Made by a program: the position numbers and the translations under genes
Shown: piece after piece, positions 2,378 to 52,300 of the stretch
Layout: every line of letters starts with the position of its first letter
How positions within the stretch are numbered: the stretch's first letter is position 1
Notes under the pieces: model-generated
What the model saw: the letters and a program-made list of their open reading frames with translations, nothing else
What the model was told of the DNA's origin: nothing
The model's database searches: none
Assembly: GCA_903813345.2 (NCBI GenBank)
Contig: CAIIXF020000001.1
Coordinates: 14,277,915-14,341,914 of the forward strand
DNA length: 64,000 nt
Origin: Owenia fusiformis
Lineage: Eukaryota > Annelida > Polychaeta > Sabellida > Oweniidae
Direction: 5' to 3'

Positions 2378-5300
2378 CACATAGAAAAGCACTTGTGTAC
2401 TCCAAACTGTTCTCCTCGCCCCATTTCCACTGGCTCTCACTGACTTGACTGATGATGAAGAATATAACAGTCATGGCAGCACAGATCAGTGTGGACAACA
2501 TCAGGAACTTGAATCTGTAGATCAGGCCCTAAGAACCACAACCAGATTTACAGATAGCAATTGCATTTAGTTTAATTCAATAGTACATTGTAAATAGGAA
2601 ATTACTATCTTTAAGTGCACTCACATAGATATATTTCACCTCACTATCTTACATGTCAACTCACCATGTTATACTTCAACTCACCATATAACACTTCAAT
2701 TAACCATGTGATATCTAACTCAACATATAATACTTCAATTCACCATTTAAAATTTCAACTCATCATATAATACTTCAACTCACCATGTAATACTTCCTCC
2801 TGATCGCACTCATCTGTGGCAAAGAATTTTTCTTGGCACCAATGTTTCTGAAGACCTTGAAGATCATATAGCAGAGGAAGATGAAGTACGTACAGGCGGC
2901 AATACCAGCCAGAACCACAAAACCAAGCTAGCGAAATGTTAAGGCTATTTACATCTTCAACAAATATATTGGACTGTACATAATTACCCTTTACATTCGT
3001 TTGACTTCACTTCTTAAAAGAGAGCTTCGTCTTCACTCTTTCAAACTAAAATAAACGTATGAACTCACCGCGCCAATCAGTGTTTGTCGGCCAAATTTGA
3101 CCGATGTTCTATATATGGGCATTCCTTCTGACGTCATCGTTGAGCCCGGAACTGACCAATGACATGCACATATTTAATTAGAATGCATTTGGCGTATGTT
3201 TCTTCAAGCTCGCTGGTTGGTGGATGAAAGGTCAGCACGTAGGTCAGAAGTGATTTCCTACCCAAACTGTCACCGGTACCGGTCCTGGGGGTGGGGCTGC
3301 TAAACTATAATATGGTCTCTACTAGGCAGAGTGTAGTTTAACTAGACTCTGCACGCAGGGTAGTACATAATAGGGCCTATGCAGGTGGTGCAGAACAGAA
3401 AACATTTTTGGGTAGTATATACACTATGTACAGCTGTACTCTACAGCAGAAATCAATCTTAATTATTTTTATGTCATATTCTAATTCATGGATTTTTTCA
3501 GAGCATCAATCTCAGTATGAAATGTGAAGGCGCATTATTTACCAAGACTCCGCTTAACTCAGTCTCTGTAAGTTAATTGAGCTTCTTTATCAATCAAGTA
3601 AAGCTAATGTGATTCTTTGTGGTAATATGTTATGATTAAAGGATACAGCCAGCTTGGATCCCGCGTCAGTGCTCCAGATACTGTAGAATGGATTCGTCAG
3701 CTGGACACCCCTATAACATTAGTAAGCCCATTCAATCATGTAAACAAAATGGCCAAAAATTTGATGAAAAAAGAAGGAAAGAGAGCAAACGATCCCCTGT
3801 TGTATCAAGACCCTATTTTCATGCAGATATGAGCTTCTATTTGATCAGTGTATGACTATTAACTAATAGTGGACCACTTTTTGAGATACCAAAGGTGTTC
3901 CATTTACAGAGATTTTTCCGTATTCATGGTATATTTAGATGATTGAAAACTTTATTGTGAGATTAGCGAGTTGAAGCCCATGATATAAGCGCTGTTAAGC
4001 GCATAAGTGTTAATGAAACAAAACCTTTAAATTCAATAATCAAAAATGTCTAAAACATTTTAGTCATGAGAAAATAGTATTGAATGATTAATCATTATTT
4101 TCAACTTGCATGTAATATTTTAAGTGGCTTGACACAGTAATACAGCTGAATGGAATCAATACAATATAAGCTTTTTAAGATATCTAGATACCTACCTTTC
4201 ACACATTTCAAAGACAAACAGGCAAATGCAGCCAAAGAGAACAGCACTAAGATGTTTCCAGTATTGTACAAGTCGACTCCTCTCTACCTGGTCCTGTAAG
4301 AAAAACACATATGCAATCGCTTATAATGATTCAATCTCAGGACCTATGGTTTTGGATTGGATTGCTTTATAAGACCCAAGAGCCCAAACATACTTCTGGA
4401 TTTTGAAATAAAATTGGAGCAACACTATATGTTTTAATCAATGGTCAAAACCGATATCTCATACATATTTAATTTTCCCCTTTTCATGTGATTATGACTC
4501 ATAGAACAGCATCTTTCATTCCCCTTAGTTTGCTTAAATAAACAGAATCATTAGCTATAGTAAGCAATTGGCTGACTCACCATCATATGTTCGCCACTGA
4601 ATATAATCCAGAAGCACATGAGGAAGGAGTAGAAGACACCCTGTCTAATGTCACTCAAAAGCAACATGAAGGGGAAGTCAAACCACAGGGTGAACCACTC
4701 AATAGGCACTGAAATAAGAGCAAATGAGATTAGTTCTTTCATATAAGCATTGGCAATGCATTGCTACAATTTTACAGCAATATGTTGAAATGAAAGCAAA
4801 TAAAAGCAAATGAGATTAGTTCTTTCATATAAACTTTAGCAATGCATTGCTACAATTTCACAGCAATATGTTGAAGTGAAAGCAAATAAGAGCAAATGAG
4901 ATTAGTTCTTTCATATAAACTTTGGCAATGCATTGCTACAATTTCACAGCAATATGTTGAAATGAAAGCAAATAAAAGCAAATGAGATTAGTTCTTTCAT
5001 ATAAACTTTGGCAATGCATTGCTACAATTTTACAGCAATATCTTGAAATGTGGGTAGCATCAAAGGAAATCTAGAGGGAGTCCTTCACTGTATCTTCAGC
5101 AAGTGTCACAGTTTTGATAGTATTTTGCCCCTAAACATGTATGCTCCAACTGAGTGGAACAGTTGTTGTATCTTATTGATGAAGGGGACTGCTTTTATGC
5201 AAAGCTTTTATGTTAGTTTATTGTTGTATACGTGTAGCATTATACTATACAAGGTAGAGGTGTCAAGTATTAACCGGTTAACCGGTTAACCGCCGATAAT

Positions 5301-8300
5301 GCCTTGACCGGTCTGCGTTTTTATGGGTGGTTAGTTGACCGTGTATAATTCTGTTATTTCCCGCGCTTATATTGCATACTAATCTGTTTGGTTTTAAAGT
5401 GTCAGTTTCACGTAAGCTACTCATACATGTCATAAGTCCGGTAACTCCTTAAAAACATCCAATCAGCAACTTTAATCCCTTCCACATTGCTTTCCCGCGC
5501 TTACTTTGCATGTTAATCTGTTTGTTTTTCAAGCGTCAGTTTCATGTGAGCTACTCATACATGTGATAGGTCCGATAACTCCTTACAAACATCCAATCAG
5601 CAACTTTAACCCCTTACTTTGCATGTTAATCTGTTTGTTTTTCAAGTGTCAGCCATGTACTTGTGTAATCAACTCATAGGCCAGATAATTCCTTTAATTT
5701 TACAAATTGCAAAACAATTTCATAAGTAAATTATATGCACTTTTTAATTCGTCAGTTTTGTTATTGTTGTCTATCAACGTCGCCAAAATGTCAAAAGTCA
5801 AAGCCTCGCTTTGGTAGTGAGAAAATTAAAATTAAAATAAACACTAATCAGCTGCAATTCTCGTTGTTTCGGTGCGTTCGTGGAGATTCCAAGGGTAAAC
5901 CAATGTGGTAAGTAATTTAGAGGTACCGGTTGTCAGGTAGTGTATGAATAGAGTAAAGCTTGACGAACGTAAAAAATAAACGCCGATATATCATTTTTCC
6001 AATTTTTTTCAACTTTCAAGATCGAAGATGAAGATTTCATTTGGAATTATCAGTTCAAATTTCCCGCCGGTTAACCGACTTTAACCGGTAAAAACACCCG
6101 GTTAACCGGTTAATGCTCAAGCAGTTAATTGACACCACTGATACAAGGTGCTTGTCCTTCTGTTTGTACCAGGGCCAATTCAGTATACAAAAACGATCCT
6201 TGCTAAATATTAATGTATGCCTGGTCCTAAATTGTAACAGTACAATCAATTTTAAGGCAGCAAGAAATACTGGGATGTGCTGTGATAAAACCAAATATAA
6301 TGTTCACTGATGTTGGTAAAATACATTTATATTAAAGGGAATTGAAGAATTAAGAAATAGGCACTTACAATTCAACTGAGTGAGAGCAATTCCAAGGCAA
6401 AGCAATGCTCTGAAAAAAATCACAAAATCATAAACTACAATAATTTTAATATTTTGAGATGTTTTATTACAAAATATTCTCCATAAAGTGTTCATCTATT
6501 ATCATTTTGAAAACATAATGTAATATATTGCAATTACACTTTTATTACAAAATTCTACAATGATCTGTTTTTAAGGGCCAGAATGTTTCAAACATCAAGA
6601 GGGATTATGAGCTATATTCATAATGATTGGATGTGTTAAATATTCTCACTTTTCAAGGAGATTTGGTTTGCGTTCCAACATCATTATGCGTCTCCAGAAC
6701 CAACAAAGGACCATTAACACAGTGGGGAACATCAATGTCTTCATGGAGAACCAAACTTTTGTGAAGCCTCCATTCTGGTTGATGAACTAAAAAAGAACCA
6801 ATACATTAATGTATTTCAAATGTATTTCATATCAACACTATAGGACAAGATTGAATACAAGGCATTAACATGACAAAATGTCACCACCTAAAACAATTTG
6901 GTCAATTTAAAGCAAGTTGGAAAATACCTTTTGACCTTAAGAAGAACTTCTGAGAACATGTAGATGATTTTGAAAAAAAAATTAGTCAATTTGAAGCAAG
7001 TTGAAAAAAGACCTTTTTGACCTTGAGAAGGTCATTGAAGGTCAAAGGTCAAATCTAGAGTCAGATTTGAACTTCTGAGAACTTGTAAAGTCAAATTTGA
7101 ACTTCTGAAAAGATGTAGATGATTTTGAAAAAAAAATTTGGTCAATTTGAAGCAAGTTGAAAACAGACCTTTTTTTACCTTGAGAAGGTCATTAAAGGTC
7201 AAATGTCAAATCTAAAGTCAGATTTGAATTTCTGAGAACATGTAGATGATTTTGAAAAAAAATTAGTCAATTTGAAGCAAGTTGAAAAAAGACCTTTTTG
7301 ACCTTTTTTGACCTTGAGAAGGTCATTGAAGGTCAAATGTCAAATCAAATGTCAAATCTAAAGTCATATTTGAATTTCTGAGAACATGTAGATGATTTTG
7401 AAAAAAAAATTTAGTCAATTTGAAGCAAGATGAAAAAATACCTTTTTGACCTTTTTTAACATTGAGAAGGTCATTGAAGGTCAAATGTCAAATCTAAAGT
7501 CAGATTTGAATTTCTGAGAACATGTAGATGATTTTGAAAAAAAAATTTAGCCAATTTGAAGCAAGTTGAAAAAAGACCTTTTTGACCTTTTTTGACTTTG
7601 AGAAGGTCATTGAAGGTCAAATGTCAAATCTTAAGTCAAATCTAAAGTCAGATTTGAATTTCTGAGAACACGTAGATGATTTTGAGATGATTTTTTAGTC
7701 AATTTGAAGCAAGTTGAAAACAGACCTTTTTGACCTTTTTTGACCTTAAGAAGGTCATTGAAGGTCAAATGTCAAATCTAAAGTCAGATTTGAAGGTCAA
7801 ATGTCAAATCTAAAGTCAAATCTAAAGTCAGATTTGAATTTCTGAGAACATGTAGATGATTTTGATAAAAAATTTAGTCAATATGAAGCAAGTTGAAAAA
7901 AGAGCTTTTTGATCTTGAGAAGGTCATTGAAGGTCAAATGTCAAATCTTAAGTCAGATTTTAACTTCTGAGAACATGTAGATGATTTAAAAAAAATTGAA
8001 GTCAGTCTAAACAGTATTTGTTAAGTTATAGGAAGTTGTAAGAAATTGTTACAGACGCCGGACGCCGGATGCCAACCTCCAACCGCCGTCGCAAAAAACG
8101 GAGACCATAACAATATGTCACCACTTTTGGTGGTGACATAATTAATATACTGGTATATCAAAACACCGGAACAGCTTGACAACTGTGATGTCAGATTCCA
8201 TTGTCCAAAATGGCCTTTTCGATTAGATTTTCTTCCACTGCATGTTTAATAGAGCTAAATATGTTTTCACATCAGGAAAAATACATTAGAGGCCCCATAT

Positions 8301-11300: not shown

Positions 11301-14211
11301 TATATCCATCTACAGAAAGGTCAGAATAGATCTCAATTATATATTGGAAGCAATAGACTTAACTAGAGTTCGTAGCATGATAAGAACTTAGAATGTTCTA
11401 AGTTTGTGCTAACCAATTGGCATGATTCCATGTTGATTTTAATGACTATTATTTGATGTGGTGTTGAATAGCTTGTAACTAAGATATTAGCTGGAAGTCA
11501 TCCTGACATACATCTTGTGCAAATATGCATCCTGCATCCCCTGGTTTTAATTCATACAGGTTCTCTTTTATTAACACTACCTGATGCAATCATCTTGAAG
11601 GTACATACATGCTGCACCATTCAAAAGTTTACTGGCAAGGGTGGGGAATTAAAACAAAAAATATTTTGTCCTGTCAAATTCCTTTTTCAGAGGCCAAATT
11701 AATAAGTCAATTTGGAAAACCTGGAAATTAATAAGTTTTGTTAAATATTCCCACCCCTGGGTCCTGCCCTTGAATTTGCTTACTAAAACATCTAATATCC
11801 ATGTTAGTCGGCGAATGTTGAAAGATACATGTGCACATTGTGGCGTACTTTGTATCAATATTTTAATTAGGGATTACAAATAGTCACAAGATTCCAAACG
11901 GAAAGCCAACGAAATGTGTTTGAGGTGACATTGAACTTCACAGATCTTTAGAGGAAATTTGAGAATTTAGCAATTTTGAAATTTTCAACTTTTCCTGAGA
12001 GGTTGTTTTTATTTCACGGTGTGTGTGCCCTGTTAAAACAAAGGCTATTATCTTTAACTCTAAATCAGATGAAACTTTTAAATTCAATAACGAAGTGATT
12101 GAATGTGTTGAAGATTACAAATATCTAGGGTGTATTTTTAACAGGAATAGTAATTTTGATAAGCAAATAAGCTATCTTAAAGAAAAATCCAGAAAAGCTC
12201 TATTTAAAATAAAGCAACAACACCATAAGTTTAATGACATTCCTATATCTGTTGCATTACATTTATTTGATTCACTTATCCAACCAATTCTAATGTATGG
12301 TTCAGAAATATGGACAAGTAAAAAACATATTAAGACAATTGAAACTATCCATCTTTCCTTTTTGAAAAACATTCTTGGTGTGAAAACATCAACTGCAACA
12401 CTAGCAGTTTATGGAGAGCTGGGTCGTTTCCCTTTGAGTCTATGTTTTGATATTCAACTTATTAAATATTGGATAAGGCTTATAAAATTGTGTCCAGACA
12501 ACGTCCTTTATAAATCATATCATTATGATTATGAAATGCACAGTCTGGGTTTTAAAAATACATGGTCAAGTAAAGTTTATAACATTTTAAAAGATTGCAA
12601 TCTTCTTTTTAACTGGAATGAACAAATTGTTGAAGATGATTTCACATTTATAAATGTTTTAACTAAGACAATGCACCAAAATTATAAGGACAAATGGAAG
12701 TGTGATTTACAATTATATCCAGTTCTGAGAACATATGTTAAATTTAAGACAACTTTTGAATTGGAGCAATATTTAAGCCTTCAAAACAAAAATCATAGGC
12801 AATCCTTTACCCGATTAAGGTTAAGTTCTCATAAACTTCAAATAGAACTGGGTAGACATGTGAAACCACGGCCAAAACCTGAACATGAAAGAACGTGTAA
12901 CGTTTGTGGAGAAATAGACAATGAAATTCATTTCATGATAAATTGCCAAATACATCAAGAAAATAGAAAACTATTGTTTGAGAACATCAACAGCAAAATT
13001 AAATTTGATAAATACCATCCTGAAAATGCATTCATAATGTTAATGTCCTCAAAAGATAAATATGTCCAAAAGCAAGTTGGCATTTTTATAAATAAAGCAT
13101 TCAAGGTCATTGAACTTGTCTGAAGAACATTCTGGATGCATCACACTGCTTTAAGTATTATGTATAGTTAAATACATGTTAATAACATGTTTTTGTATAT
13201 ATTGTATTTGTATAATAATAGTGTAGTGTAGTGTAATGTAGTGTAGTGTAGTAAGTTTTTATTTTATTTTTGTACTGACTAATATGTCATACTATGACAT
13301 TCTAAGAGTCAATAAAAGATATATATATATATCATTATAAAAACACATTAAATCTGTGCAAGTCCTTAAATAGCAATTGTTGAACAAATGAGGGAAATGT
13401 TGTACAGGAATACTTACTGTTCCTGTCAACTGCTCGGATTGTTGGTGACAAAAATTATTTTTACAGGAACATTTTTCTACATTGAGAGATTCCATCAATT
13501 CTCAAGATGGCGTTTGGATTTAAAAGGGGATTCCCCATTTGACTGGCCCGGAAGTACCAATAAATGGAGGAATTTGACGGTTGAAATAAGTTTAATATTA
13601 CACGCAAATATTGCAATCAAAAACAAAAATTCCTTCGTTCTGCCAATAAACCCAGACAATTGTGGATTCAACTACACGAAAAGAATGCTAAAATACCAAG
13701 GAATCTATTGAAGTAGGTAGAGAAGTTTTAATCATACAAGTGCAAAAGATAGCGCACAGTCAAGGACTATAGTCCTGGAACGGGATAAACCCTGTCCAGG
13801 GGCATAGCTACATATACGCAGAATACGCAGCTGCGTACTATTGAGAGTCAAGACCACCATAGAATATCACATAGAAACTCTCAAAATGCGCCAAATAACT
13901 TCCAAAAATCCCAAATTTTTGGGGGAACATACCCCTTGACACCTTAGTTTTGCTCAGCCTACGGCCTCGCGTACTATCACTTCTAATTCTGGCTACGCCC
14001 CTGCTGTCTCTTATGTTGACTTTACCCCAAACGTTGATGTTACACCAATTTGCCCTATTTGTTCAACAAAAGTAGAGAATATAGTAGTAATAAATATCAA
14101 CTCACCAACAAGACCACCCACAAGGAAAAATGTCAAAAGAAGCAAACCAAGAAGCACTCCGAGTCCTATCAATTTCCTGTTGCTGAGGTTCTCTAAAATT
14201 ACTCCTCCCAT
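2378..14211 (-). CDS. WLS: Wntless (Wnt ligand secretion mediator), 12 exons, C-terminus off the left edge
   Basis: Wntless is the multi-pass membrane receptor that carries lipidated Wnts from ER/Golgi to the plasma membrane. Coding exons in transcript order: 14106-14211, 10892-11038, 10112-10258, 9415-9539, 8619-8798, 6650-6786, 6369-6409, 4581-4708, 4196-4293, 3647-3710, 2784-2927, 2378-2528. All have AG/GT borders and phases that join without a break, giving 489 codons. Seen: start [10 protein letters not shown], a hydrophobic segment at residues about 14-34, an NVS glycosylation sequon near 41, four lumenal cysteines in the family pattern (TICKEKS, GKCESA, LDCSIEQ, YNCSVL), then [53 protein letters not shown] and SQWKWG, all recognisable WLS blocks. 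The vertebrate protein is about 541 residues; the missing part is the last membrane segment and cytosolic tail, which I could not find in 1-2377. Exon 10 has a weak donor (GTATCC). Confidence 0.95.
2634..2790 (-). repeat. 21-bp minisatellite made of the WLS exon 11 end plus its 5' splice site
   Basis: Read on the minus strand, exon 11 ends in AAGTATTACATG followed by the donor GTGAGTTG. The next roughly 150 bases are about seven more diverged copies of this 21-bp segment. At least two distal copies keep ATGGTGAGTTG intact. Reading past the true donor gives ATG GTG AGT TGA, an in-frame stop. Confidence 0.85.
3271..3362 (+). repeat. Dispersed repeat, copy 1
   Basis: GGGGGTGGGGCTGCTAAACT, then a TATGGTCT block and TAACTAGACT, are shared in the same order and orientation with 9985-10076. 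Confidence 0.7.
4714..5049 (-). repeat. 86-bp tandem repeat (4 copies) abutting the acceptor of WLS exon 8
   Basis: The block containing GAGATTAGTTCTTTCATATA recurs at 4726, 4812, 4898 and 4984, exactly 86 bp apart. The array starts inside the pyrimidine tract next to the acceptor at 4709-4710, so each unit repeats the minus-strand TCATTTGCTCTTATTT tract, but only the true site carries the terminal CAG. Confidence 0.9.
5255..6140. mobile_element. Non-autonomous hAT-like element with 8-bp target duplication
   Basis: The ends are TAGAGGTGTCAA on the left and, reverse complemented, CAGTGGTGTCAA on the right, followed inward by repeated TTAACCGGTTAACCGG palindromes. It is flanked by the identical octamer ATACAAGG at 5247-5254 and 6141-6148. 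An 8-bp duplication with YAGNG-type ends is the hAT signature. No transposase is visible. The interior holds an approximately 150-bp tandem duplication (5360-5700). It lies in the WLS intron between exons 8 and 7. Confidence 0.88.
5360..5700. repeat. About 150-bp tandem repeat inside the hAT-like element
   Basis: Blocks with GCATGTTAATCTGTTTG and CATCCAATCAGCAACTTTAA recur two to three times in direct orientation, the third being partial. Confidence 0.8.
6861..8140 (+). mobile_element. Minisatellite-cored interspersed element (HINE/pearl-like), longest copy
   Basis: The left end is GGCATTAACATGACAAAATG followed by TCACCACC. The right end is CAATATGTCACCACTTTTGG continuing into TGGTGACATAAT, which forms a stem-loop. 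Between them lie about eight tandem units, then a GC-richer arm with GACGCCGGACGCC. The family recurs at least seven more times in the window. The layout (short inverted ends, minisatellite core, terminal hairpin) matches the established description of Helentron-associated elements such as oyster pearl; family membership is inferred. Confidence 0.75.
6895..8010 (+). repeat. Minisatellite, about 8 units of 127-182 bp
   Basis: The anchor CATGTAGATGATTTTGA recurs near 6957, 7097, 7237, 7385, 7518, 7667, 7849 and 7976. Units carry TGACCTTGAGAAGGTCATTG and GTCAAATCTAAAGTCAGATT, themselves small palindromes. It forms the core of the element at 6861-8140. Confidence 0.9.
8565..8592 (+). mobile_element. 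Right-end fragment of the GTCACCAC element family
   Basis: AACAACTTCGGTGGTGACAT followed by AATA matches the terminal half-hairpin of the family. No left end is visible. Confidence 0.5.
9590..9960. other. WLS intron segment with a possible degraded foldback
   Basis: GGGGGGATTAACCCCAGAG near 9601 and CCCTGGGGCTTTCCCTCC near 9906 are loosely inverted. No coding potential seen. Confidence 0.3.
9985..10076 (+). repeat. Dispersed repeat, copy 2, ending 36 bp from a WLS splice donor
   Basis: Second copy of the repeat at 3271-3362. Its right edge lies just outside the donor of WLS exon 3 (exon end 10112). Confidence 0.7.
12022..13335 (+). mobile_element. 5'-truncated non-LTR retrotransposon in WLS intron 1
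   Basis: A 366-codon open frame (12023-13123) begins just after where the RT active site would be. It starts with [10 protein letters not shown], the post-YxDD motif of LINE reverse transcriptases, and ends with a zinc-knuckle-like motif ([17 protein letters not shown]). A 3' UTR follows with a GTAGTGTAGT simple run and an AATAAAAGATATATATATAT tail. Everything upstream of the thumb region is missing, as expected for a dead-on-arrival insertion. It is antisense to WLS. I saw no clear target-site duplication. Confidence 0.85.
12023..13123 (+). pseudogene. C-terminal fragment of a LINE ORF2 (reverse transcriptase thumb and zinc knuckle)
   Basis: The frame is still open, implying a recent insertion, but the catalytic palm with YxDD and the endonuclease are absent, so it cannot encode an active enzyme. 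LINE hallmarks seen: KTK plus [32 protein letters not shown], and the C-terminal CxxC...H...C cluster. Clade not assignable by eye. Confidence 0.85.
13797..14003. mobile_element. 207-bp MITE with CAGGGGCATAGCTA ends
   Basis: The left end CAGGGGCATAGCTA and right end TGGCTACGCCCCTG are inverted. CTGTC flanks both sides (13792-13796 and 14004-14008). It is in WLS intron 1, about 100 bp inside from the exon 1 donor. Confidence 0.8.
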
Positions 14212-14590
14212 GATTCAGCCGATAAAAAGTTTGTGAAAAATAATTCCTATCTTCTCAAAAAGCCGGGTTTTTGAGCACAAGCCATAAATTCATAAAATAT
14301 CTTCCGAAAATTTTCAACAAAGTTTTTAATTTTTCACATGGAGGCTCATTAGAGTACAGCGACATCTATGAGTAATTTATTCATGAAAGGGGTGAAAGCA
14401 TTCATAAGAAATAATGTTTCATGTTTTTTAACGATAAAGTTAGGTTCTCGATCAATTTGAATAAATAAACCAGTTATTTTATTGTATTTATAAGAACATA
14501 GATTTGAAAATTATCTTGTCTGAATAATTTATTTTATAATCTATTTATGTTGAACACAAAATAAATAGACTCGTCTAGACTAATCTTACA
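14212..14590. promoter_or_regulatory. Divergent promoter interval between WLS and SYCE2
   Basis: The WLS start codon (14211, minus) and the proposed SYCE2 first exon (plus, near 14591) are separated by about 380 bp. The interval is AT-rich, without a repeat element I can recognise. The motif ACAATGGCGGCAG at its right edge resembles the YY1/ATGGCGGC initiator found at metazoan housekeeping start sites. Bidirectional activity is inferred from geometry only. Confidence 0.4.
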
Positions 14591-14704
14591 ATGGCGGCAG
14601 ATTTGAAAATCTTGAAATTTGACAGAAGAGAATGATTGATTGTCATTTTTCCATTTTCAGCAAGAGTAAGATTCGTATATTATTGGTCGTCTAGTAAATT
14701 TCAG
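14591..14704 (+). other. Candidate noncoding first exon of SYCE2, with a 14-residue upstream ORF
   Basis: A good donor (CAG then GTGAGT) at 14704/14705 follows an ATGGCGGC-type initiator. The ATG at 14591 opens a 15-codon frame closing at TGA 14633-14635. The next acceptor in phase with known coding sequence is at 15582-15583. The exon is inferred. Confidence 0.4.
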
Positions 14705-15612
14705 GTGAGTTATTTCTAGCATATTCTCGTGTATAATGAATGACTGAAGAGAATGGAGACAGGTTCAGTACTCGGTCAAGATCACACCACTCCACTGTGA
14801 CTGTGACCGACACTCACTGCTCATGATTTACTGAACGCAGCTGGCTCAAAAGCCTTCTGTCAGCTCGGTAGAGTAACTCATGATTGTGATTCAGAGACCT
14901 AGTCTTTAAGGCTTAGGCCAAGGATGAACTGAACAAAGTTGATACCGTGCTGAGAGTCACTGTTGGTGTGATTTCCTTCTAAAACAATGGACTTAGATAT
15001 CTACTAAGAGTGGTAAAATTAGAGTATGCAAAATGATTGTGCTGATGGTGATCAAAGTTCTAAGATCATATCAAAGTTTAATAGTGCTATGGAGAACACT
15101 GAATCTAATTTACCTTCTTCCAAAGTAATTTTTAGGCATAGTAATATGTATGCACCTAGTTTGTGATTTCTTGCTAAAATAGGGAGCTAGTTTGTGTTCA
15201 TTTCTTTTTTATCTCATGATCTCATGTGAAATATTTTTTTTTGTACTGGAACTGGGTAAAGAACTGGGTAAAGATATACCTATGAAACGAAACTCAAGTA
15301 TTTTCCATTTATTTGAAAAGTTCGAGATCGATTAATGTGTTAGTCTTCGAAAAGTCCAATGTTGCTAGGCACGTAGTTTGTGATCGAAATAAACTTTGTA
15401 CCTAAGTTGGCATGCAGCTTGAGTACCTTACGGTGAAGCTGCCATCTTTAGATAAAGATTTTAGTATAATAAAATAAAAATTTTTTGATGTTTTTAAATA
15501 CATATTTTTTAAGAGCAGCCAATTCTCGTTACCAAAGATGTACCAGCATAATTCAGTAATTGTGTATTTATTTTGAATTTTAGTTTGTTCACTGAAAGTT
15601 TATCCTCTAAAG

Positions 15613-22883: not shown

Positions 22884-23007
22884 CAGTAAATGGGCAAATT
22901 AATTCTGGTAAAATTATTTCGAGAAACATATAGTGCTATTTGTCTCTCTGAATTACTAATCTCCATGGAGCAAACTATAAAATTCTCATTTTGGTAATCT
23001 TTCCAAT

Positions 23008-23820: not shown

Positions 23821-23825
23821 TAGTA

Positions 23826-23992: not shown

Positions 23993-23999
23993 GTTCGGT

Positions 24000-37300: not shown

Positions 37301-40300
37301 TCCCTTGGCCTCGCATGCAACAATTCATGCAGGCAAATATCTAAACAAAGTAAGACTCCTGGATGAACATAATGGATATTTCACATTTTCTTTTGTTTTA
37401 TTGTATCGGCAATTTTCATTGAAAATCACTGTGAATACAGCCCAAGGAAAAATTACATTAATTTTGCAAAAATCATAGAATTTCATTATGCTCTAATCAC
37501 AAAGTGTACTTACTATACAATATACACAAGCTTACAATACAATATCTATACAACAACTGCATGCTTTAAACTGAAGTCTAATCATGCATTTTGAAAGCCA
37601 ACCTGGTTAAAAAATTCTTGAAGTAAGCAATCAATCCACGGTTCAGCAACCTCCATGGGTCGAGCCTCGTTTGAAATATCTGACACTTTCATCAAAATCA
37701 TCATAACCTATTGTAGAAAAGCTATAGGATTAGACCTAACAGAAGCAACGTACTGGGCTATACTGGGGTGTGGAGGCATTATACTTAGGCTTGTCCTCAG
37801 CTAAGGTATCTGCTTCAAGCATTTTGGTATAAAGAACTGGTACATTTGTATACTGTAGGTATATCAAGCAGGATCTTACTAAATATTAGAAGCGGCCATT
37901 ATGTTACCATGACAACTAGGAATACAAAAATGTCTCCCATTTTTTTGTGTAGCAGGAGACCGCTTCAATCCTGCAATGTGTGAATGTAAAATGCAGGATG
38001 GGGATCATTATTATCCACGAGTCAGGGCTCCTATTCTAAACGAAGCAATTGCATTCAAGTATATAAATATTAATGATTCGCTAGTCTTGCATCTTGCCTC
38101 TATTGTGTTTATGTTGTCACAATCTCTCAAAGTCTGGCCAAGAGCAAGATAGAGTAGGAATCAGAGACTTGACGCGAGACTAGGGAACCACATGCAGATA
38201 CAATGCAGAAAATGTTCATACAAAACTTTGTAGCTATTAAAGAGGCAACAAAAGAAACAAAAGAGTTGATGGAAACTCGTTGAAAAACTGTCACAGTTTT
38301 ACCGAACTGAGTTTTTGACCTCATTTTAAGAAAGTACCTTGATTTTTAAAGTTATCTTAGAGAAAATCTCCAAAAGTCAACATCTTCTGCAGAAAATTCT
38401 GCATCTTGAACTATCAGGTACTTTCTTGTTTGATCAAATACTGAACATTCTTAGATAGCATCATTGGAAAAAATTATTTCCAACTTATTACAATCACAGT
38501 ATACATTGCTGCCACTTTAAGGTAGGCTAAGTAGAGTCATCTGACAAAATAACTTTCAAATGCAAATTCATTCCACAGTGACTACCTTAATGCTTTGAAC
38601 TTTCGAAGCATGTTGATATCATATCAGATATTATTCAAAGATGACTCTTGTTATTTATAAAATAAAAAAATATAATAAACTAATGGCAGTTTTCTGTCAT
38701 GGATTGTTCTCAAATGAGAAAAAATACTGATTTCTTGTTATGACTTTCCAAATTTCAACTGGGTACAGATTGACACTCAATCGGGTGCTGCACCCGGCTG
38801 ATTCAATGTTATGAATGCAATGGATACCAACAAGATTTTATCTTTAAGATCTACGTACCAATGATTTGTGCTCTTTGTTGGTAAAATCTTTGTTGGGTAT
38901 AATGGCTTTGAAAGAATTGAGTATGTCTGAATGTTTGGCCATGTCTGTTGCTAAAACACATCTGAAATGAACATTTCAAATAAGTTGTTATTATAAATTT
39001 CTAAATGATTCAAAGATTTGATAAAAAGAGTAAATATGGTATGTTGTTTTAAAATGTTGATTACAACACCAAAAAAATCCTCTCTAATTGTGGTAACAGA
39101 GGTTTTGATGCAGGACGTTCTCTCGAATATGTTGGATGGTTCAGGAATTTATTTTCTCTATACAAAGACTTAGTATTGTTATTATAAAGAGACTTTATGA
39201 ACACCCTGTATATCTAACAAATATTAAGAGTTATAAAATCAAAAATGGTCGGGTTCTTCATACTCACTTGATCATTCCCTCTCGGACCTTCTTGAATGTC
39301 TCTAGTGGAAGATTTCTGAATATATTTGCATGATTTTTCTCAAGAATCTCGAAGGCTTTGGAGCAATGGTGGTTTTCCAGTGGTGAAATATCATTGTATC
39401 TCATCGCTAATTCTGTTCTTGCGTTGATCTGAAGGAGAGAAGATTACAATAATTCTTTTTTTACAGTAATTCTTAATTGAAAAATATGTATCATGTCAGA
39501 CTTGAAATATGTAAATTTTATATAGAGATGTCCACCTTCCATCCAAAGAACCTCAAACCTTTCTAAAATAAACAGTGGAACCATTAATGATAAGAATTCA
39601 GAATTAGTATTAAAACCAGGGCATAAACATGCAAAATGTCACCACCTGTCATTTGTTACAGATGCCACATGTCGAACACCACCATGCACTGGACACCAAC
39701 AGTGGACCGCCGCCACAAGTTGGAGACTATATCAAAATGTTAATGGTGACATTAAAACCATTGCCAGGGTAGGAGGTCTGAATGTTGTTGGTCCAAATCA
39801 CAAGAAGCATTACAGTCATGATTCCTCTGCAATGGGGTTATAGCAAAAAAAGATGGAAACCTTGTGCACTGTTCTTCTATTATACAGATTACACAAACAA
39901 CAATTATTCTCCTTTACCTAGAACTATGCTATAATCAACCTGGAAAAGTCTCACGCTGTGTCTACAGACTCATATTTCAATATAACAGGCATCAATATTT
40001 AAAGCAGATTTGACATAAGCTCATGTCATTATTGACAATATTGTGCAACTGTAATAAGTCAATCAAGGCCAATACATTCTAATGAAGTTCAACATCAGTT
40101 TTATGTGTATGGTATGTTATAGTCATCTAAATTCTATCATATCAATGTTTTTGGTGTCAATACAAAAATGTTATGCCCAGGAATGTCTGTATTTCATGAG
40201 GGCCAGCCTGCTGTCATGGGAATCTACTACAAAGACAAATCACAGTATGTATCAACACAACTCCAATTGCACTGGTGATCCACTCGATTACGCTGCTTAC

Positions 40301-43300
40301 CGAAACGGTTCGTTTTGGTAACAAAATGTCGGAACGTCGAAGGTACGATTTTTCACAACGGTTTTTCGAAAAACAGTTAAGATCTGTCCTTTTAACCCAA
40401 ATCTTTTATGTAACTTAAGTGAGGAATTAAATCGATGATTCTGTTGTCTTCTGAGCTATTTTTTCGCAAACATGAACTTTTTCTAAAACATATGATACTG
40501 ATACACGTTTGTGTGAAAAAACGTCATGGGGATTCTGCCTACAACGCGTGAAATAAGGAAAACAGAAAAATCGTACCTCCGACGTTCCGACCGTTTTGGT
40601 AACCAGCGTAATCGAGTGGATCACCAGTGAATTGTCTCTCTCAGGAGATTCCTTCTTATGATCAGCATCATCCAGCATTTAAAACTTACATTTACCCATT
40701 GCAATCAGCAAACAATCTTTGGTTTGGCTTGGTAAAAGAATTGGGAAACTAGTTGCCAAAGGGACAGTGGGGCTGAATGGGGCACTGAGGTTGAGTGGGC
40801 AAAGCAGCTGAGTGACCAATGGGGTTGACTAAGCAATGGGGCTGAGTTGCCAATGGGGTTGACTAGGCAATGGGGCTGATTGCCAAACTAGAAAATTGTG
40901 AATATCCTATTAATGAACCTTATAAAACACTGACCTGATAAATGAAAAATACCAAGAGGTAAATATATTGAAATAATATGCACTCAACTACATTTGCACA
41001 TTAAGTATAATCCATACGCAAAAATATATGACCTCAGCCAACAAAGCAAAAATGACTCAAATGAACAAAATCATACAAAAGTAAACTAACACTCAATGAT
41101 CCTGAGGTCAATGAACCTCTTGGATTAATCAATAATGTAAAAGATCTAGATCTTACAACAATACGTGCAAGAATTGCAAATCCTGAAAAGCTAATGCAGG
41201 CAGACAATAATTGTCAGTAATTGTGAATGTCAACAGCCTTCCATTGAATTGTAACCAGATATTTGACACAGTTGTAGAAAACAACTTCAGGACACCTAGC
41301 TCCCCACAGTGGATATAACCTTCAAGAATTCTTAATCTATACACGAGGTTCATGTTTAAAAATAATAAGTCATTGACAGTGAGTGTCTGCGAAGAATGTA
41401 AAACAATGATCATGTTTCAATTAAATGCACACAAGATCAAACGAGTGAATATAGAAAGTAATAACATGATGGAGAGGACACCTAGATTTCCTCTATGACT
41501 CCATAACTCTCAGAATGACTTCTAATTAAGGTCCTGCTGAAGATGTGCACGTGATAAAATATGAGAAATATCTTAAAGGTACTATCTCTACTGAGGATGT
41601 GCTTGAGATAAATGCATGGCTTGAGAAACATCTTAATGGTACCATCTCTGGTGAAGATTTGCATATGATAAATGCATGGCTTGAGAAACATCTTAAAAGT
41701 ACCATCTCTGGCGAAGATGTGCATATGATAAATGCATGGCTTGAGAAACATCTTAAAAGTACCATCTCTGGCGAAGATGTGCATATGATAAATGCATGGC
41801 TTGAGAAACATCTTAAAAGTACCATCTCTGGCGAAGATGTGCATATGATAAATGCATGGCTTGAGAAACATCTTAAAAGTACCATCTCTGGCGAAGATGT
41901 GCATGTGATAAATGCATGGCTTGAGAAACATCTTAATCACTTTGAAACAATTAAAAATTAAACTTTTGATAAATTGGCATACTGAACTAATATGTTAGGG
42001 TTCCCAATGAGACACAATTGCAAATAATTTGTTGAAAATATTGGTGAACACGTACCCATTTCTCAGAAAAGTGACATCATATACAAAAGGGTAATTCTTC
42101 GTGTAAAAAACATTCCTGTATCTTGAATATTAACATGCAATATTTGAATCATGATAAAAACTTGTTGCTTGTATAATGTTCACATTGTGCTTTTACTTTT
42201 CAATACCAAGAAATTGGATGATACAGTTATACCAAATATTCCTGTTTTGAACTAAGGCCGTAAGAATTAGATTCTTTGTTTTGCGTCCCCTTGCTTGCAT
42301 GATTTTGAGTAAATCAGAAAAAACAAACACATCCAAATAGCAACCACAAGGGTCTGAAAGTGACATTGCATTTCGTTCAATCAGAATCAGACGAAATGGC
42401 GGATAAATTGATGTGCGTCAAAATTGACAGTGTTATTGATTACTTGGGTAAACATTGTGTATTTTTTTTATTGTTTTCCCTTGATAATACCTATATTTAA
42501 AGATGTCATTTTAAAAGCAAAAAAGGCTCCAAAACGTAATAAAATATGTAGTTTGGATGTTCATTTATGTCTGTGGATTATATTTTATACCACAAACACT
42601 TATAAATACCTGAAATTTGCAATAAAAGTGCCCAAAAATTGTTGTTTCGAAATTCCCCATTTTTCCTGTATCGCGCTAGTCACGTGACCCTTACGCGTAG
42701 CAGGCAATGCCTAGTATTACAGATATTACAGCTCAGTACATATTTCAACATGTTCAATATGGCAAACATCAGCGATTCTGACTCCCGGGTTCTGGGAAAT
42801 GGCTATATATAAATCGGCGAGAGGATGTTATTTAAGGAGGACAATTTAAGGAGGGGAAATATGTCCAAGTATGCCAGTAAAAGAGCAGATATGGACTTTA
42901 GACAAGTACTATGACGGAGAATCAACTAAAAAAATGTGCGTTCTGGAATGAAGACCCGTTGCCATTGACTGAGAATCCCAGCGATCCTATAATCCTACTC
43001 AGTTTGAATTTAGACGCGGAAAACAGGTTATGAAAACGGGCTCTCTGCAAAGTTATCAAATTTAGAAAATATGGATCTTGTTTTTGAGTGGCTTAACAAG
43101 CATTCGGATACAAGACTTGGCGCTATCTCTTGTCAAATACACGCAGACTTGCAGTAAATTGGCCATTGCAAATTGCAAAATCAGATCGTCAAATAAATCG
43201 CTTCGTTTTTAAACGTATGCTTCATATCTTCATCCAAAACTTTAGGATTCGATAGAGATAAGTTAAAACTTGTACAGGAAGAAATGGGAGATCCTACCTT

Positions 43301-46300
43301 AATTTAGAATCGCTGATTTCTCTGGACAAATTCCGAGAAGAAATTGTTCAACATCGCGATCAGCTCAGACTAAACTTACATGTCGTGCATGTCACTCTGA
43401 ACTCACGTGATAAAATACGGCATTTTGATTGGTTACTACTCGTGTTGTCATGACGCGAAAAACAATAGTAAACACTGAATATGTTAGTGAACTGTCATAT
43501 ATGGAGCAATTGTCTTTCTGATTGGTTAACTTTACACGCCTCCTAAATGAATATAGTAGTCGTAGTAAATGATTCATTGATAACTCTGAATGTGGGCGTG
43601 ACCAGCTTTATTTTGACACCAAATTCAAGATGTTTCAAATAAAAATGGCCTCGCAAGACGAGGTTGAAATATCGGCAGTTTGATACTGATATGGTCTACG
43701 ATAGATCAAAATTGACTGCCCCGCGTCATATGTCACGTGAGCCTATATTTGTTGAAAAATGAAAGAGATAGTGACACTTTTTAATCTTAAGTTAATACCA
43801 ATATTACAAACACATATCTATTTTTTTCATTAAATATTTATTTCTTCATTATACATACATTTGTTTTACACTGCATTGATTTATTTTTGCAAAACCTTTG
43901 CTATTAGATCTTTAAATATATTGTATAAAATGTATAGATCTGTGTTTGTATCACTGCAAATTGGTATGTCATCCCTTTTAATGCCCATAAAATGTATACA
44001 TTTCTCAGCAAACAAGTTTGTGTTTTTTCTTGAGTTTGTGTTTGTTTTCCTTGTAACCTTGCATGATTTGGATTTTGCCAGGACGCAAAACAGAGAATCT
44101 AATTCTTATGGCCTAACCATCATTACCCAAGATAAATTGCTAAGCTTTATCAATCATCATCATACTGAAACCCAAGAAAGTCATTGACCCAAATATAATT
44201 GATATAATTTAAGGTAGATTTATTAATATCAAAAAACAAAGACATTATGTTACTGAAGGGCATTCAATGTTTGCTATTATTACACACAAACTGACCTTCA
44301 AACCATCTTATTAAAGCTATCTATCTGAGTAAGCCTATCATCAAAGGGAGGAAAACTAGTAAAGCCAATCAGCTATATAAATCAAAGGGCCATCTCTTTA
44401 TTGTATCTTGCATTTTGGATCAAAATATCAATCATTTTTTATAATTCTGCAGAAATCAGATGAAACTTTGATCAACTGTGAATCTTTAGTACATGAGAGA
44501 CCAGGCCCTGGAAATATTTGTCTAGGAAAGTATGACAAGGCCTGTGAACTCAATTAACACCCTTTTACTTTTTTATGGCTAGATATGCCCGTCTATTTGA
44601 TACTGTCTAAATTACAAGTTAATTCTTATTCAAAGCAGACCTCTGTAAAACAAAAGAACTATTATAGCAATGACAATAACAATAGCACTGAACTGAGGAA
44701 GAGAATTACATTAACCGATTATTTAGGTTTAAATTAATGTTTATGAACCTTACCATTTGCAATGCGGATCTGAGATCTTAGTCGAGATACTTATCAAGTG
44801 TATAATTAGAAAGTGGATCAAACTGATTGCCTTTTGTAAAGAAATGTCAAAGACAGCTACAGTTATGTCAATAAATTGCAGATCTAGTTCCTACTTTTCA
44901 AAGTGCAGTTAACCCTATTTGAAGGTGGTACAATATCACATTTAATCTATTATTAACCTGATATGTAATATCCCCAAATGCCAATACCAAATATCACATT
45001 TTAACCCATTAGAAACCTAATATGCATTGTTGTATCCCCAAATATCAATACTAAATATCACTACTAAATATATACCAAATATCACGTTTTAATCCATTAT
45101 AAACCTAATATGCATTGTTATATCCCCATATATCAATACAAATATCACATTTTTAATCTATTACTAACCGGATATACATTTTAATATTCCCAAATATCAA
45201 TACTAAATATCACATTTAACCCATTAGAAACCTAATGTGCATTGTAATATCCCCAAATATCAATACCAAATATCACATTTTAATCCATTACTAACCTAGT
45301 ATGCATTGTTATATCCCCAAATATCAATAACAAATACCACATTTTAATCCATTAGAACCCTAATATACATTGTTGTTTCCCCAAATATCAATACCTAATA
45401 TCATATTTTAATCCATTATTAACCTAATATGCATTGTAATATCCCCAAATATCAATACTAAATATCACATATTAATCCATTAATAACCTGGTATGCATTG
45501 TTATATCCCCAAATATCAATACTAAATATCACATATCAATCCATTACTAACCTGATATGCATTGTTATATCCCCAAATATCAATACTAAATATCACATAT
45601 TAATCCATTACTAACCTGGTATGCATTGTTATATCCCCAAATATCAATACTAAATATCACATATTAATCTATTACTAACCTAATATGCATTGTTGTATCC
45701 CCAAATATCAATAACAAATACCACATTTTAATCCATTACTAACCTAATATGCATTGTAATATCCCCAAATATCAATACTAAATATCACATATTAATCCAT
45801 TACTAACCTGGAATGCATTGTTATATCCCCAAATATCAATACTAAATATCACATATTAATCCATTACTAACCTGGTATGCATTGTTATATCCCCAAATAT
45901 CAATACTAAATATCACATATTAATCCATTACTAACCTGGTATGCATTGTTATATCCCCAAATATCAATACTAAATACCACATTTTAATCCATTACTAACC
46001 TGATATGCATTGTTATATCCCCAAATATCAATACCAAATATAACATTTTAATCCATTACTAACCTGATATGCATTGTTGTATCCAGGATGGTCCAAGTCA
46101 TGGCAGATGGCGGAAGTTATGAGAATTAAGACATCTATATCATCTAAAATTGTTGGCAAATCAAGCAACCATGTCAATCCATACATCTGCAACATATAAA
46201 TACATGTAAATAAGAAATAAAGCTTGCTGATACTCATCACATCTTTCTGATTTCAAACTAGCAATGGAAATATGGTAAACTGATAAAGGGCTTGGATCTC

Positions 46301-49300
46301 TCATATCGGAGATGCGTATCTCATATGTTTCATTAAAGTATAACAATACTTTTCATAATTTGATCTATTCATTTATTATATTTAGATGACATTCCTAGTT
46401 TGGAGAGTAATGATTATTTTGAGGTATTAATACCGTAAAATTTTGCAAAATATTTTTCTTCGTAAACTCTCACTTCACAAAAATTATGTTTCTAAACGAA
46501 ATTGACCTAGATGAGGACATCAAAAAATTTAATACGGCACTCTGATTGGTCAATCAGGACAAGACTGTGAAAGTCATGGCTACTTGCACATCAGTAAGAA
46601 TTAGATTCCAATATCCTTCAGATTTTGAGATAAGTAGAATTAATATTGGATAACAGGGCTTTAGATAAGAATTAACAAAATCCAGGGCTTCAATGATAGC
46701 CATAAAGGATGTCTCAATACAGTCTCTGAGCTACGTCACAACCTTGGAGTGGGACTCTGAATGATTTAAATCTAACACCAATGTGTCAAGACTGGCCTGC
46801 ATTCAAATGTTTGAAAAAATACAAAATAATATATTGATTGTAAATTGTTCCTTGGCATAATTAGTGAAATATTTGTATGTCAGCTAGATGTTAACATAAA
46901 TATAACATGAAATACATAGCTGTAAAGTGGAACAATACATGTCAATTGGTTGAATCCGTTCTAAGGACACTTACGTGAATAAGACAACTTGAGTATACTT
47001 TACATCGATAACCTGTTGACATTCTGCGATGCTCAAGTCAAGCCATGCTGATCCTTACACAATTACTCTATCAAGTATTCAGGGAGGGACCTCCAGAAAA
47101 AAATTAGCACTCAACCTTTTCACAATTATTCATACATCAATCACCAAAAGTTGAAGGGGCACTTTGGTGTGATTTTGGAAAGTCTTTTACAACATGAAGT
47201 GACAATTGATGTGCCATACTGAGCTTTTACTCTTATGTCAAGCAAACTTAAGCATATATTGGGGTAAATTTATGTGACCCAATCTTGCCAATCTTGAAGC
47301 ACACTTGACATGATTATATGCCAATCTTTTGTCAGTCTCTTGTGACCCCATGTGCAATTATCTCACTAACTCCACTGACCACATATGACTGTATAGATCT
47401 TGCTCGCGGGCGAAATCATGTACAAAAATGCAGCCCAAATGAGGGAAGGAAGAGTCGGACTCTAGACAAGACTAAATCACTCCACTTTCTTTCTGATTTT
47501 TATAAAATTGGTTACCATGACATTCCCTGTCAAGCAAAGTATAAAAATGTGGATGGAATTGAGAGATTAAGATGGATATCTTAAATGATGTAACAAAAAT
47601 TAATTCAGGGACGTGCATCTAACTAACTTTCCACCAAATAAGTACAACCTAAATCCCCAATATATTCTAAGATAAGATGTCTCGTGCCTTTCTCCATGAG
47701 CCTGATTCAGTATTTCAAGATGTCACATAAGCTTTAGTTCTCTATGAGCCAGATTCAATACTTTTATTTGTAGTAGTCTTGCATTAAGCTCTTGTACCCA
47801 GATTCTCCCAAACATTCTCTGTAACGCATGTAAGGAAGAGAATGGGGGAATGGCCAGGAATGGCTCTACATGGGCTTGATTTAAGACCACTGCTTGAAAT
47901 GTTCTTTTTTTAATTATATACTTATAATGTAAAATGTTAAATTTCTACCCTTAGAAATGAAACATATTCTATTTTGAATAGCAATTTCTCAATGAAGCGA
48001 ACAATTTAACATAGGTTTGCATAATTTTGTGTGGGATAAGCAAGATAAGATGTCCTGTAATACTGTACATGCACAAGGCAGTGACATATAAAATAAGTAA
48101 CCATAGATGTTTCTTAGAGATGCTATAAAAGGTTTTAACATTGCATCACAATGTGCGTCATTGAACCGTTTCACTGTTAGTATCAATTACAAATTATAAT
48201 ATAAAAGGCAATCTTTTTAGGTAAGCTAAGATTCAAAAAACATTGATCTTCATTCACTCCCTCAGTATGATTTAGACTTTTGTGAGAACGACAAGATGTT
48301 GGAGGTTGGTAAACGTCCTAAATATATTTATTATTTTAGTATGCCTTTCCTCTTGTGCCATATGAATTCAAAGTGCTTTTAAAATAAATCAGCTGCTTTT
48401 CAAAAATTCAATTCAATTCACATATAAAATATTATTAACATTAACATACATTCATATCCTATCTGTGAAATAAGTATTAATTAAGGAGGGGAGAAAAGTG
48501 GTATTCCATAGGACAAAACCCATATCAGTGACCTCAGCATAAAGGGTCACAATCATCGATATCTCACACAAAACAATGAAGATTTATATTGACGAATGAC
48601 TATAAAATTATTGTTGATTTGCTTGGTAATTATCTTGATCAATCTCGATTTGAAAAATGTTTCTCCATAAGTACAAAGACTAACAAATTAGGTGGAAATT
48701 CTACAGCCATAAAGTACCATAAAACATGAGTGAATCAGGCTATAATTTTCCGAGACTCTATGTATAAAGTGACACAGTACGTCATGCCTGTCTAACGGAT
48801 AATTGCACCATGAATGCCAAGCTTAGCTTAACTCTTGCTTAAGCCATGGGAGAATATAGCTAATCCTAAAAGGGATGTTCACTTTTATTGATATATGACA
48901 ATTAGGGTAAAACTATATTTAGACTCACAAGTCTGACGTCATAAGGGTTTAAAGGTATAGACTATACAGATACTATTTTCAACTTTACCGGATGTATTTT
49001 CGCATCAATCATTATGGATGGGTCATCTCTAAATCTAAATGGGTTAAAACTTAATCTAAATAGATGTGTCAAGATTCAGGAAATACTGATTTCCCTATGG
49101 TCTTTGTAACTTTATATCCAGAGGCATTAACAGTTAGGTTATTTTTAAAATCTGAACCATAGACTTTTAAGACTTTAGAGAAGACAAATTATGACCCGAG
49201 ACATTGTCTGAGGATTTAGCCAACCCTAAGACAATAACTAAAGGTTGAGATGACAAGACATTTACTGAGGGTTAGGGAAAGGAGAGTGGCCACGAAGCAG

Positions 49301-52300
49301 TGTTTGGAGTTGTGAAATGGTACTATCTTATACTCACCATTTGTGTGACCATGAAGCAGTGTTTGGAGTTGTGAAATGGTACTATCTTATACTCACCATT
49401 TGTGTGACCATGAAGCAGTGTTTGAAGTTGTGAAATGGTACTATCTTATACTCACCATTTGTGTGACCATGAAGCAGTGTTTGAAGTTGTGAAATGGTAC
49501 TTGGTTGTAACCTCTGTAAATTTCAAACAGCCATTGTTCTAACACTGAGATCTGAAATAATAAGAATCAATACCATATTCTAATAACTTTTAATTGATTA
49601 ATATAACATACTAGCAAACATTAAATCTAGGCCTGTGAAATTTAGCTTTAACATGACAAAATGTCACCACCTAGTTGCTCACAATATTGTTACAGACAAT
49701 GATCGCCAACTGCCAATCGCCAACCGCCATCACAAAAGATGGAGACCATAACAATATGTCACCACTTTTTTACAAATACATTTGTATTATATAAAATTGC
49801 ACATAGTATAACAACGATTGTAATTAAGTTGATACACTAAAAAGTATGAATCAATTGATTATACCAATCAATGTCAGACACATGGACAAACATTATATCA
49901 CATTTGCACTGATTGTTAATATTGACAGTCAACTTGATCAATAAATTTACATTTATTTTGGCATGATCGGTCAATAGAGACTTAAACATTGATATCAAAC
50001 TGTGGGTTAAACTTGCAGGGAATCTATAGTATGTATATCTATAGTACTATTATATATATTACATGTATGTATATCTAGCTAATGTTCAGGAAGCAATGTG
50101 TGTTGTATGTTGACATTCGGATGTTTCTTCCAATATCTCTGTTAAGTGATGTACTTTTAGAATAGCCAGGAAAGTTGTCCAAATCAATTGTTCTTTGGGG
50201 CCTTTTACCTAAACATATAGCATCCATGTATCCTGATATTCTTTGAAAAACCTCAGTCTGTAATCATTCCATATAACGTCACCCATTGGTGTCATTCTCA
50301 TGTGTCATTCCCAACTTTATATTAAGATTTAACCACAAAATTACTTTGAATTGTAATACAAGAAAAAAATTGGTGATAAGGATGGCGCTTGACGCAGCTG
50401 TCTGGAGGCAACAAAGTACATGGTTATCTATTACCCAATAATAAGACTGATTATTGAGCCTTGTGTCTTTCGTTGCTTTTATAAAGAACCTGATTAAGCA
50501 CCGTAGGAGCACAATGGTGATATCATAATACGGGGATTATATCTTATGACTCTACTGTTAGCAGTACTTGGCCTGGAGAATTGATTAACTTGAATCAAAA
50601 GGCTAGATCTGAATCTAGATGAAGGTCAAACTAAAATTGGTTAAAGTCAAACAGAAATTAGTTAAAGTGCCTGGGAAAATAGACTGCAAAACAAATTATA
50701 AAAGATAAAAAGCAATTTCCTAGTATAGTAGTCATTTAAGTTTAACCCTTCAATTGATTTCCCTCTATGTTTTTAACTAAGTGTTTACTAGTTCATGACA
50801 TGCCATCCAACAATCAGTGATCATTCTAATCCTTAAACAATATCAAACAAAAATAAATTTGCTTCGATTACAGTTATATGTTCTTATCACACAATTTCAA
50901 GTGCTACGCCACAAGTTTCTCACATTCTGTTTTCAGTGTGGCAGTGGAATCTTTGTAAATGAGCGTAGTTGGTCCTCAGGCTCCGGAAACAAAAATTGAA
51001 GGTATAAAGGTATAATGCATCATTATTGTAGAAATTTTGTTAGATTAACGTGGTTTGAAAAATAAAAGTTAATAAAAGTTATAATGTAAGAAAAAACAAA
51101 ACAAAAATGTTTTTTTTAGAAATAGAATAGTTTAAACTGGAATATTGACAAAATAGACTTTGTTACCCCAGTCAAAAGAAAACAAGTCCCATGCATTAAA
51201 GAACATCCAAACTGGATCACTTTCCCAAATCGCAATACGTAGGAACCCATCACCCACTACATGTAGGGTGATCTATTAATTGAAAGATTTGTCTAACCTA
51301 TACTCTAAGACTGTTTCAAATTGTATCCTCTAAAAGTTGAGCCTTGTCACAATTCCTTTAAAATGCTAATAATGAATGCAATTTTTCTAGTTATATATAT
51401 TATACAATATGTGTCAAATTTTGCAAAATTAGTTTGGACAAAAAACATCATCATCAGTTGAACTCGGAGCCTGGAGACCGGCTACACAATGGTTCCACTT
51501 CGACCTGGTATGTTTTGCAACTAGCAAATATTTTTCTATAAATGAACTGAAACGAGGCCATAATGTCTCACAAAGAGTGAATTCGTGTGAATTAAGCCAG
51601 AATAGAGGAAATTGTTCCCAAGATAATAATTGTAATATTGACCGCAAAAAAGTTCCAAGTTCGTCCCAGTATGCATTAAAATTTAAGAGAAAAGAAAATC
51701 GTATTACTAATTGACCTGTGTGTATACCTTTGAACAGTATGACAAATAATGATGATTTTCTTAGCCTCTTAAAGGAGTATGTATTATTAAAAACATTGAA
51801 ATAAATGCGAGGACTGCATTCTGATACTCATAGCATCTCTCTCTGTTGTATCTTCTCCATAAGATGTGGATTACTCGAAAAGAAATTTAATGTGAAATAA
51901 CCTAGTGAACAGCTCTAAAATCTGAATAACCCTTAAGTATATATAAGGTGAATGGATCCCAAATGAGAGTCAATACCATATACATGTACAGTATATATGA
52001 CATTTTCAATAAGAGGATTATGAAAGACATAAACCTACAATTGGAAGTTTTCTATTACTATACAGTCAAAACAATCATATTGTATAAAAGAAAATTTAGA
52101 TTTTCTTCACATTCAAATAATCTTCAATTCAAAATAAGATTTGGCTTGTCTCACATCTCTGCAAAATTTAATCAGTAAAGGCTGCATTTGATCCAAGTTT
52201 AAAGGTTCCTTTGTAATCAACCATTGAGCATTGTTTCCCATTGGAATTATTTGGACATCTCTAATTCATATGAGCTTTTTTCTCTATTCCCTCGATTCAA

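Follow-up and report, generated by a model that had tools for sequence, protein, structure and literature searches.

Tandem arrays that repeat an exon-intron border recur in genes of the annelid Owenia fusiformis, and are very probably minisatellites of the type described in amphioxus as mirages, made by local duplication of a border, expanded in tandem, and tolerated through the copy next to the exon. We analyzed a stretch of 64,000 nucleotides from this genome (GenBank assembly GCA_903813345.2, contig CAIIXF020000001.1, positions 14,277,915 to 14,341,914 of the forward strand), called here the window; plain positions below refer to it. Two host genes in the window, both on the minus strand, carry such arrays: Wntless (WLS) and a gene for a PDE9-type phosphodiesterase. 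A sequence-only reading had proposed that three arrays span 5' splice sites in two genes, and this was confirmed by Tandem Repeats Finder together with exon mapping. Junction arrays recur elsewhere in the genome and were found at about 21 gene loci in six families (TCP1, adaptin, PDE, WLS, myosin, and kinesin).

The three arrays in the window span donor 2784 in Wntless and donors 46064 and 49456 in PDE9. Tandem Repeats Finder reported 45 rows for the window, which were merged to 28 arrays with a period of at least 10 bp. The Wntless array has a 20-bp period (2636-2796, minus strand; about 8 units with 72-74% match, reported as two overlapping rows) and contains 13 exonic nt from the end of the exon at 2784-2927 (minus), which encodes ...RRKYYM and has the donor ATTACATG/GTGAGTTG at 2784. 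The larger PDE9 array has a 64-bp period (45072-46084, minus; 15.8 units, 90% match), with 21 exonic nt per unit. It spans the donor CATATCAG/GTTAGTAA at 46064, at the end of the exon at 46064-46186 (minus; ...HPGYNNAYQ). GT was kept in 14 of the 15 other copies scored, and a looser, related stretch starts at 44984. The other PDE9 array has a 59-bp period (49286-49501, minus; 3.7 units, 98% match), contains 46 exonic nt, and spans the donor CACAAATG/GTGAGTAT at 49456. Its exon (49456-49551, minus) is the previous one in the gene model, placing the 64-bp and 59-bp arrays on consecutive exons.

The proteins fit when the exons are joined at the exon-side copies. Seven PDE9 exons spliced at the exon-side sites gave an open protein of 292 aa that matched human PDE9A (8bpy_A, E = 4.4e-123), and the alignment had no gap at the joins VTQM/MYGL and YNNAYQ/INART. 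The Wntless part, aligned with human WLS (7drt_B, E = 1.8e-36), had no gap at the join RRKYYM/GLIYRF. According to the alignments, the window arrays contribute no insert to either protein, and the protein-fitting donor is the exon-side terminal copy in all three spanning arrays. Splicing in vivo would probably be regular and use that copy.

A fourth array in the window adjoins a splice site and does not copy it. This 86-bp array (4712-5050, minus; 3.9 copies, 95% match) ends 3 bp from 4708, the first exonic base of the Wntless exon at 4581-4708 (minus), in agreement with the earlier proposal that a fourth array adjoins a 3' splice site. The further proposal that the true site is the terminal unit of each array stood, by protein alignment, for the three donor arrays but not for this one, in which the true acceptor reads TTTCAG and the other copies read TTTGCT. 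Because these copies lack AG, the acceptor is adjoined and the splice site is not duplicated. The unit of a mirage spans the exon-intron border, and the array at 4712-5050 lies outside that definition.

Two other features of PDE9 were seen. The stretches at 37603-37707 and 33229-33333 (minus) are alternative versions of one exon, both in frame and likely mutually exclusive. A PDE9 intron also holds a 60-bp array at 41562-41936 (6 units, 95% match) with open frames on both strands.

Junction-spanning arrays were frequent in a first sample of 26 genic pieces (200.5 kb) taken around exons of the TCP1, adaptin, and PDE families. Searches of the genome (498 Mb in 525 contigs) gave 153 matches (55, 60, and 38), and 116 of them lay in the chosen pieces, a choice weighted toward genes in which several exons matched within about 10 kb. 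After one of these was dropped for its many stops (L012, 1726-2202) and overlaps were merged, there were 114 exons with 228 junctions. By eye, we moved six of the automatically picked junctions, in the four pieces L007, L012, L013, and L029, and confirmed others. An array was counted as crossing if its overlap with a mapped exon end was 6 nt or more. Tandem repeats made up 14.1% of the pieces, and 15 of the 81 arrays crossed an exon end (8 donors, 7 acceptors); two further arrays overlapped exon ends by 3 and 4 nt. The units that we read by eye contained a piece of exon, the splice site, and some intron. In L013, for example, an adaptin donor has 23 copies of a 151-bp unit at 99% match; L018 has 34 copies of an 82-bp unit, and L007 has 9 copies of an 83-bp unit at an acceptor.

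Arrays also crossed exon ends in myosin genes, which served as a hold-out. We used 71 of the 92 exon matches, each with flanks of 500 bp, and excluded 12 belonging to an alternative-exon cluster and the 9 weakest. Among these 142 junctions, 4 of 21 arrays crossed an exon end by at least 6 nt. As first scored there were five, at 2 donors and 3 acceptors; the count fell when one donor in L056 was moved from position 488 to 522. The old position still underlies the analyses of GC content, GT/AG retention, host donor scores, and terminal units given below, and the column count skipped that array. Separately, a myosin gene region at C9:37986009-37994334 holds 12 irregularly spaced matches to head-domain positions of about 18-84, which probably represent alternative exons in large number.

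The kinesin set had no array on a listed junction. Of 144 matches we took the 22 with the best E-values and dropped two with several stops, which left 20 exons in 18 fragments. These were judged by eye, and no array overlapped any of their 40 listed junctions. One fragment, L079, has a 93-bp array at 1107-1380 that, by our reading, repeats an acceptor together with the first part of a kinesin exon that the domain search had not listed; this reading of the exon leans on what we take to be the kinesin neck motif. Since this array sits on an unlisted acceptor, crossing counts elsewhere are lower bounds. Another array was met unsought in the kinesin search, at C2:23266359-23269174, where a piece of a kinesin exon (positions 290-327) occurs 18 times at 159-bp steps. 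Part of it (L093) reads as an acceptor array; it was counted in no rate. The lowest-coordinate copy, which is last in the direction of the gene, has an open frame of 68 aa versus 52 aa in inner copies, as expected if that copy is the true exon.

The arrays appear to have originated at their own loci. When we compared the first three units of each of 25 arrays, there was no similarity between arrays at E < 1e-3, and we rejected a single dispersed element as their source on that ground. A PDE9 query that included the 64-bp array gave 17 genome matches to its array part, all at the array's own locus, in a search that skips very common words. Periods of the 25 arrays ranged from 17 to 259 bp (median 64), with up to about 34 copies. 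It is extremely improbable that the arrays are an artefact of assembly or the dispersal of one repeat family. Such arrays are hard to assemble, and an amphioxus mirage was apparently aberrantly assembled in the draft genome (PMC3087553), but the units here bear exon sequence of their own gene, differ from array to array, occur as diverged copies, and are spread over the many loci and families named above.

We believe that a short segment across an exon-intron border would have undergone tandem duplication where it stood, and that the resulting array would then have been expanded and homogenized through slippage or unequal exchange. The gene would tolerate the array because the exon-side copy alone would suffice for splicing, the copy that touches the exon still being joined to the next exon. 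The remaining copies, which all include some exon sequence and a splice site, would become intron and drift during expansion and contraction. Two observations weigh against this account. One comes from amphioxus, where the border unit of the mirage in the globin gene BflGb6 is reported to be excluded from homogenization (PMC3087553), whereas terminal units here were not distinct: the terminal unit was less similar than the inner units in 4 of 16 arrays, with units aligned to the terminal unit, which favors it. We do not take that report, which concerns one locus, as defining. The other is in how young arrays keep their spare splice sites. In a split made afterwards, the 14 arrays with a match of at least 94% had 0 changed splice-core columns versus 6.4 expected, and the 8 older arrays had 27 versus 22.3 expected. 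The zero in young arrays is not predicted by plain neutrality, and at most hints that an array retains its spare sites in its early life.

Over all arrays, spare splice sites varied about as often as expected. Against a stratified expectation set by the average rate of their units, 27 of 151 splice-core columns were variable versus 28.68 expected (22 of 23 arrays scorable). This column-based count replaced a cell-based comparison that had suggested better conservation of spare cores (lower values in 18 of 22 arrays; Wilcoxon p = 0.023); the earlier count was dropped because one change common to many copies was counted repeatedly, and the replacement showed no overall difference. GT or AG was intact in 179 of 187 spare copies, contrary to the earlier suggestion that only the exon-side end of an array stays recognizable. 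We rejected frame keeping as an explanation: periods were multiples of three in 7 of 25 arrays, about a third or less, and the other 18 would shift the frame. We also rejected weak host splice sites, as host donors had a mean score of 4.99 (n = 13) versus 3.96 for the others (n = 183; p = 0.22) in a comparison that omitted mapped donors scoring below -1. It is very unlikely that the spare sites are retained for function, whether as back-up sites, for recruitment of U1, or for controlled unproductive splicing. The intact GT and AG dinucleotides and the unvaried cores of the young arrays would fit such a role, but the overall column count, the lack of a preference for periods in multiples of three, and host donors that are no weaker than others do not. 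The proposal in the sequence-only reading that the copies act as donor decoys is not supported by the column count and the periods, and the young arrays are a contrary hint.

The arrays affected donors and acceptors alike. Of the 23 arrays studied, 13 lay on donors and 10 on acceptors (10 each when the window is left out). One of the donor arrays had only 4 exonic nt, and the two further kinesin arrays were both at acceptors. These numbers speak against donor-specific causes, and we consider it highly unlikely that U1-paused polymerase or R-loops at 5' splice sites prime the slippage, as had been suggested. That all three spanning arrays of the window are at donors is what such a process would give; the 8 donors and 7 acceptors of the 26 pieces, the 2 and 3 of myosin as first scored, and the two kinesin acceptors are not.

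It is possible that the formation or retention of arrays is raised at splice junctions. We simulated a null in which the same arrays were seeded uniformly, with any position allowed except wholly inside an exon. Using the smallest reported period per array lowers the expected crossings, and the simulations were repeated with the best-scoring period. The 15 crossings in the 26 pieces compare with 3.8 expected by the smallest period or 5.0 by the best-scoring period; as many were reached in 0 of 4000 simulated runs, and P was 0.00005 or less in the repeat simulation. In the window, 3 of 28 arrays crossed versus 0.5-0.8 expected (simulated P of 0.012-0.037), though these three had prompted the question and are not an independent test. 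We also looked at strong arrays (score 100, period 20, match 85%). In the 26 pieces, 13 of their edges fell in the first 100 bp of exon, 1 at 0-49 bp of intron, and 7 at 50-299 bp of intron. In myosin, 3 fell in exon plus one at 4 nt, 3 at 0-49 bp of intron, and 0 at 50-299 bp. Base composition does not explain the placement and was rejected as the cause: the 33 strong arrays off mapped junctions had a GC content of 0.333, matching that of non-exon DNA (0.331; exons, 0.419), and the 19 crossing arrays had 0.375.

Other results weigh against a preference for junctions. The excess over uniform seeding comes from one sample only, the 26 pieces, and the filter for strong arrays was chosen after the data had been seen. 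For myosin, the test stated beforehand compared array edges 6-100 bp inside the exon with intron control bins at 50-150 and 150-250 bp; there were 4 exon edges (5 as first scored) versus 8 and 0 in the control bins, which is no excess. The 4 myosin crossings compare with 2.5-2.7 simulated (P of 0.20-0.27), and the 20 kinesin exons had no array on listed junctions and one on an unlisted acceptor. These results would fit uniform formation of arrays along the gene, in which exon-internal arrays are removed by selection and the arrays at junctions are the expected share of the same kind of array, with no bias. With repeats covering 14% of the 26 pieces, many crossings are to be expected in any case. 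Uniform formation does not readily give 15 crossings where 3.8-5.0 are expected, nor 13 strong edges in the first 100 bp of exon versus 7 at 50-299 bp of intron (by the filter chosen afterwards), and unmapped exons such as that in L079 conceal further crossings. We regard it as a serious candidate, if somewhat short of probable. The stronger proposition, that minisatellites arise preferentially at junctions of either type regardless of base composition, and that growing rows of spare copies stand at several per cent of splice sites, is in our view tentative and rather doubtful. The earlier claim that minisatellites nucleate at exon-intron junctions was upheld insofar as the arrays recur and exceed the uniform null in the 26 pieces, but the myosin hold-out showed no excess by its own criterion.

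The window contains other repeats and reading frames. Long open frames at 11999-13123 (plus) and 34162-37239 (minus) resemble LINE-type reverse transcriptases, a label given by reading and not by a family search. Three blocks of repeats of roughly 148-331 bp lie at 6944-7830, 16496-17233, and 19903-20710, and the consensus units of the second and third look, by reading, like reverse complements of each other. A search of the window against Rfam gave no match at the gathering score.

With arrays at several per cent of the junctions sampled (15 of 228 in the 26 pieces and 4 of 142 in myosin), mirages become open to counting, dating, and testing. They also call for caution in gene prediction and in studies of splice sites, as rows of intact and probably unused sites can stand beside the real ones. 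If junctions are indeed preferred, the arrays would be a standing and measurable reservoir from which introns and exons could newly arise and splice sites could shift.

Several known systems resemble these arrays in part. The human gene IFI6 (6-16) likewise has a minisatellite at the end of an exon with units that carry splice donors (Turri, Cuin and Porter 1995), and two of its downstream units are used as donors, producing three mRNA species (PMC4526556). The spare sites in O. fusiformis, in contrast, are probably unused, and 18 of 25 periods would shift the frame. Introns can be gained through tandem genomic duplication of a segment containing AGGT (PMC3443670), which likewise places extra splice sites inside a gene; that duplication begins within an exon and makes a new intron, whereas the border copied here is probably an existing one. 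Earthworm metallothionein genes have large minisatellite-type arrays within the first intron (PMC12783039) and are likewise an annelid case of intron minisatellites, but the accessible part of that report does not describe copied splice sites.

The closest likeness is to the mirages of amphioxus, which the arrays match and which are a named class where the sequence-only reading knew of none (PMC3087553, PMC3902484). Mirages are reported as tandem duplications of an exon-intron border, either 5' or 3', with units of 10-160 bp, with AG or GT in many but not all repeats, and with regular splicing (PMC3087553). Their hosts are Adh3 and the globin genes BflGb6 and BflGb9 (PMC3087553), to which PGBD5 and troponin C were added (PMC3902484), and they were proposed as a route to new introns (PMC3087553). 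The arrays described here likewise have units that span the border with at least 6 exonic nt (3 in the window, 15 in the 26 pieces, and 4 in myosin), are found at either border (13 donor and 10 acceptor), and have units within the reported range of length except for one array at 259 bp. Mirages were reported gene by gene, whereas here their frequency can be given: 15 of 228 mapped junctions in the first sample, 4 of 142 in myosin, and none at the 40 junctions listed for kinesin. The hosts also differ, a cephalochordate there and an annelid here; we take the cephalochordate host as where mirages were seen and not as part of their definition. The genome studied here has three hits above the cut-off to the erythrocruorin-linker family PF16915, which is not known outside annelids. 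A literature search found, among the papers listed, no report of mirages outside cephalochordates, which is not proof that there is none. Based on these comparisons, we conclude that the arrays of O. fusiformis are best filed with the mirage minisatellites already described, probably in another phylum than that of the earlier reports.

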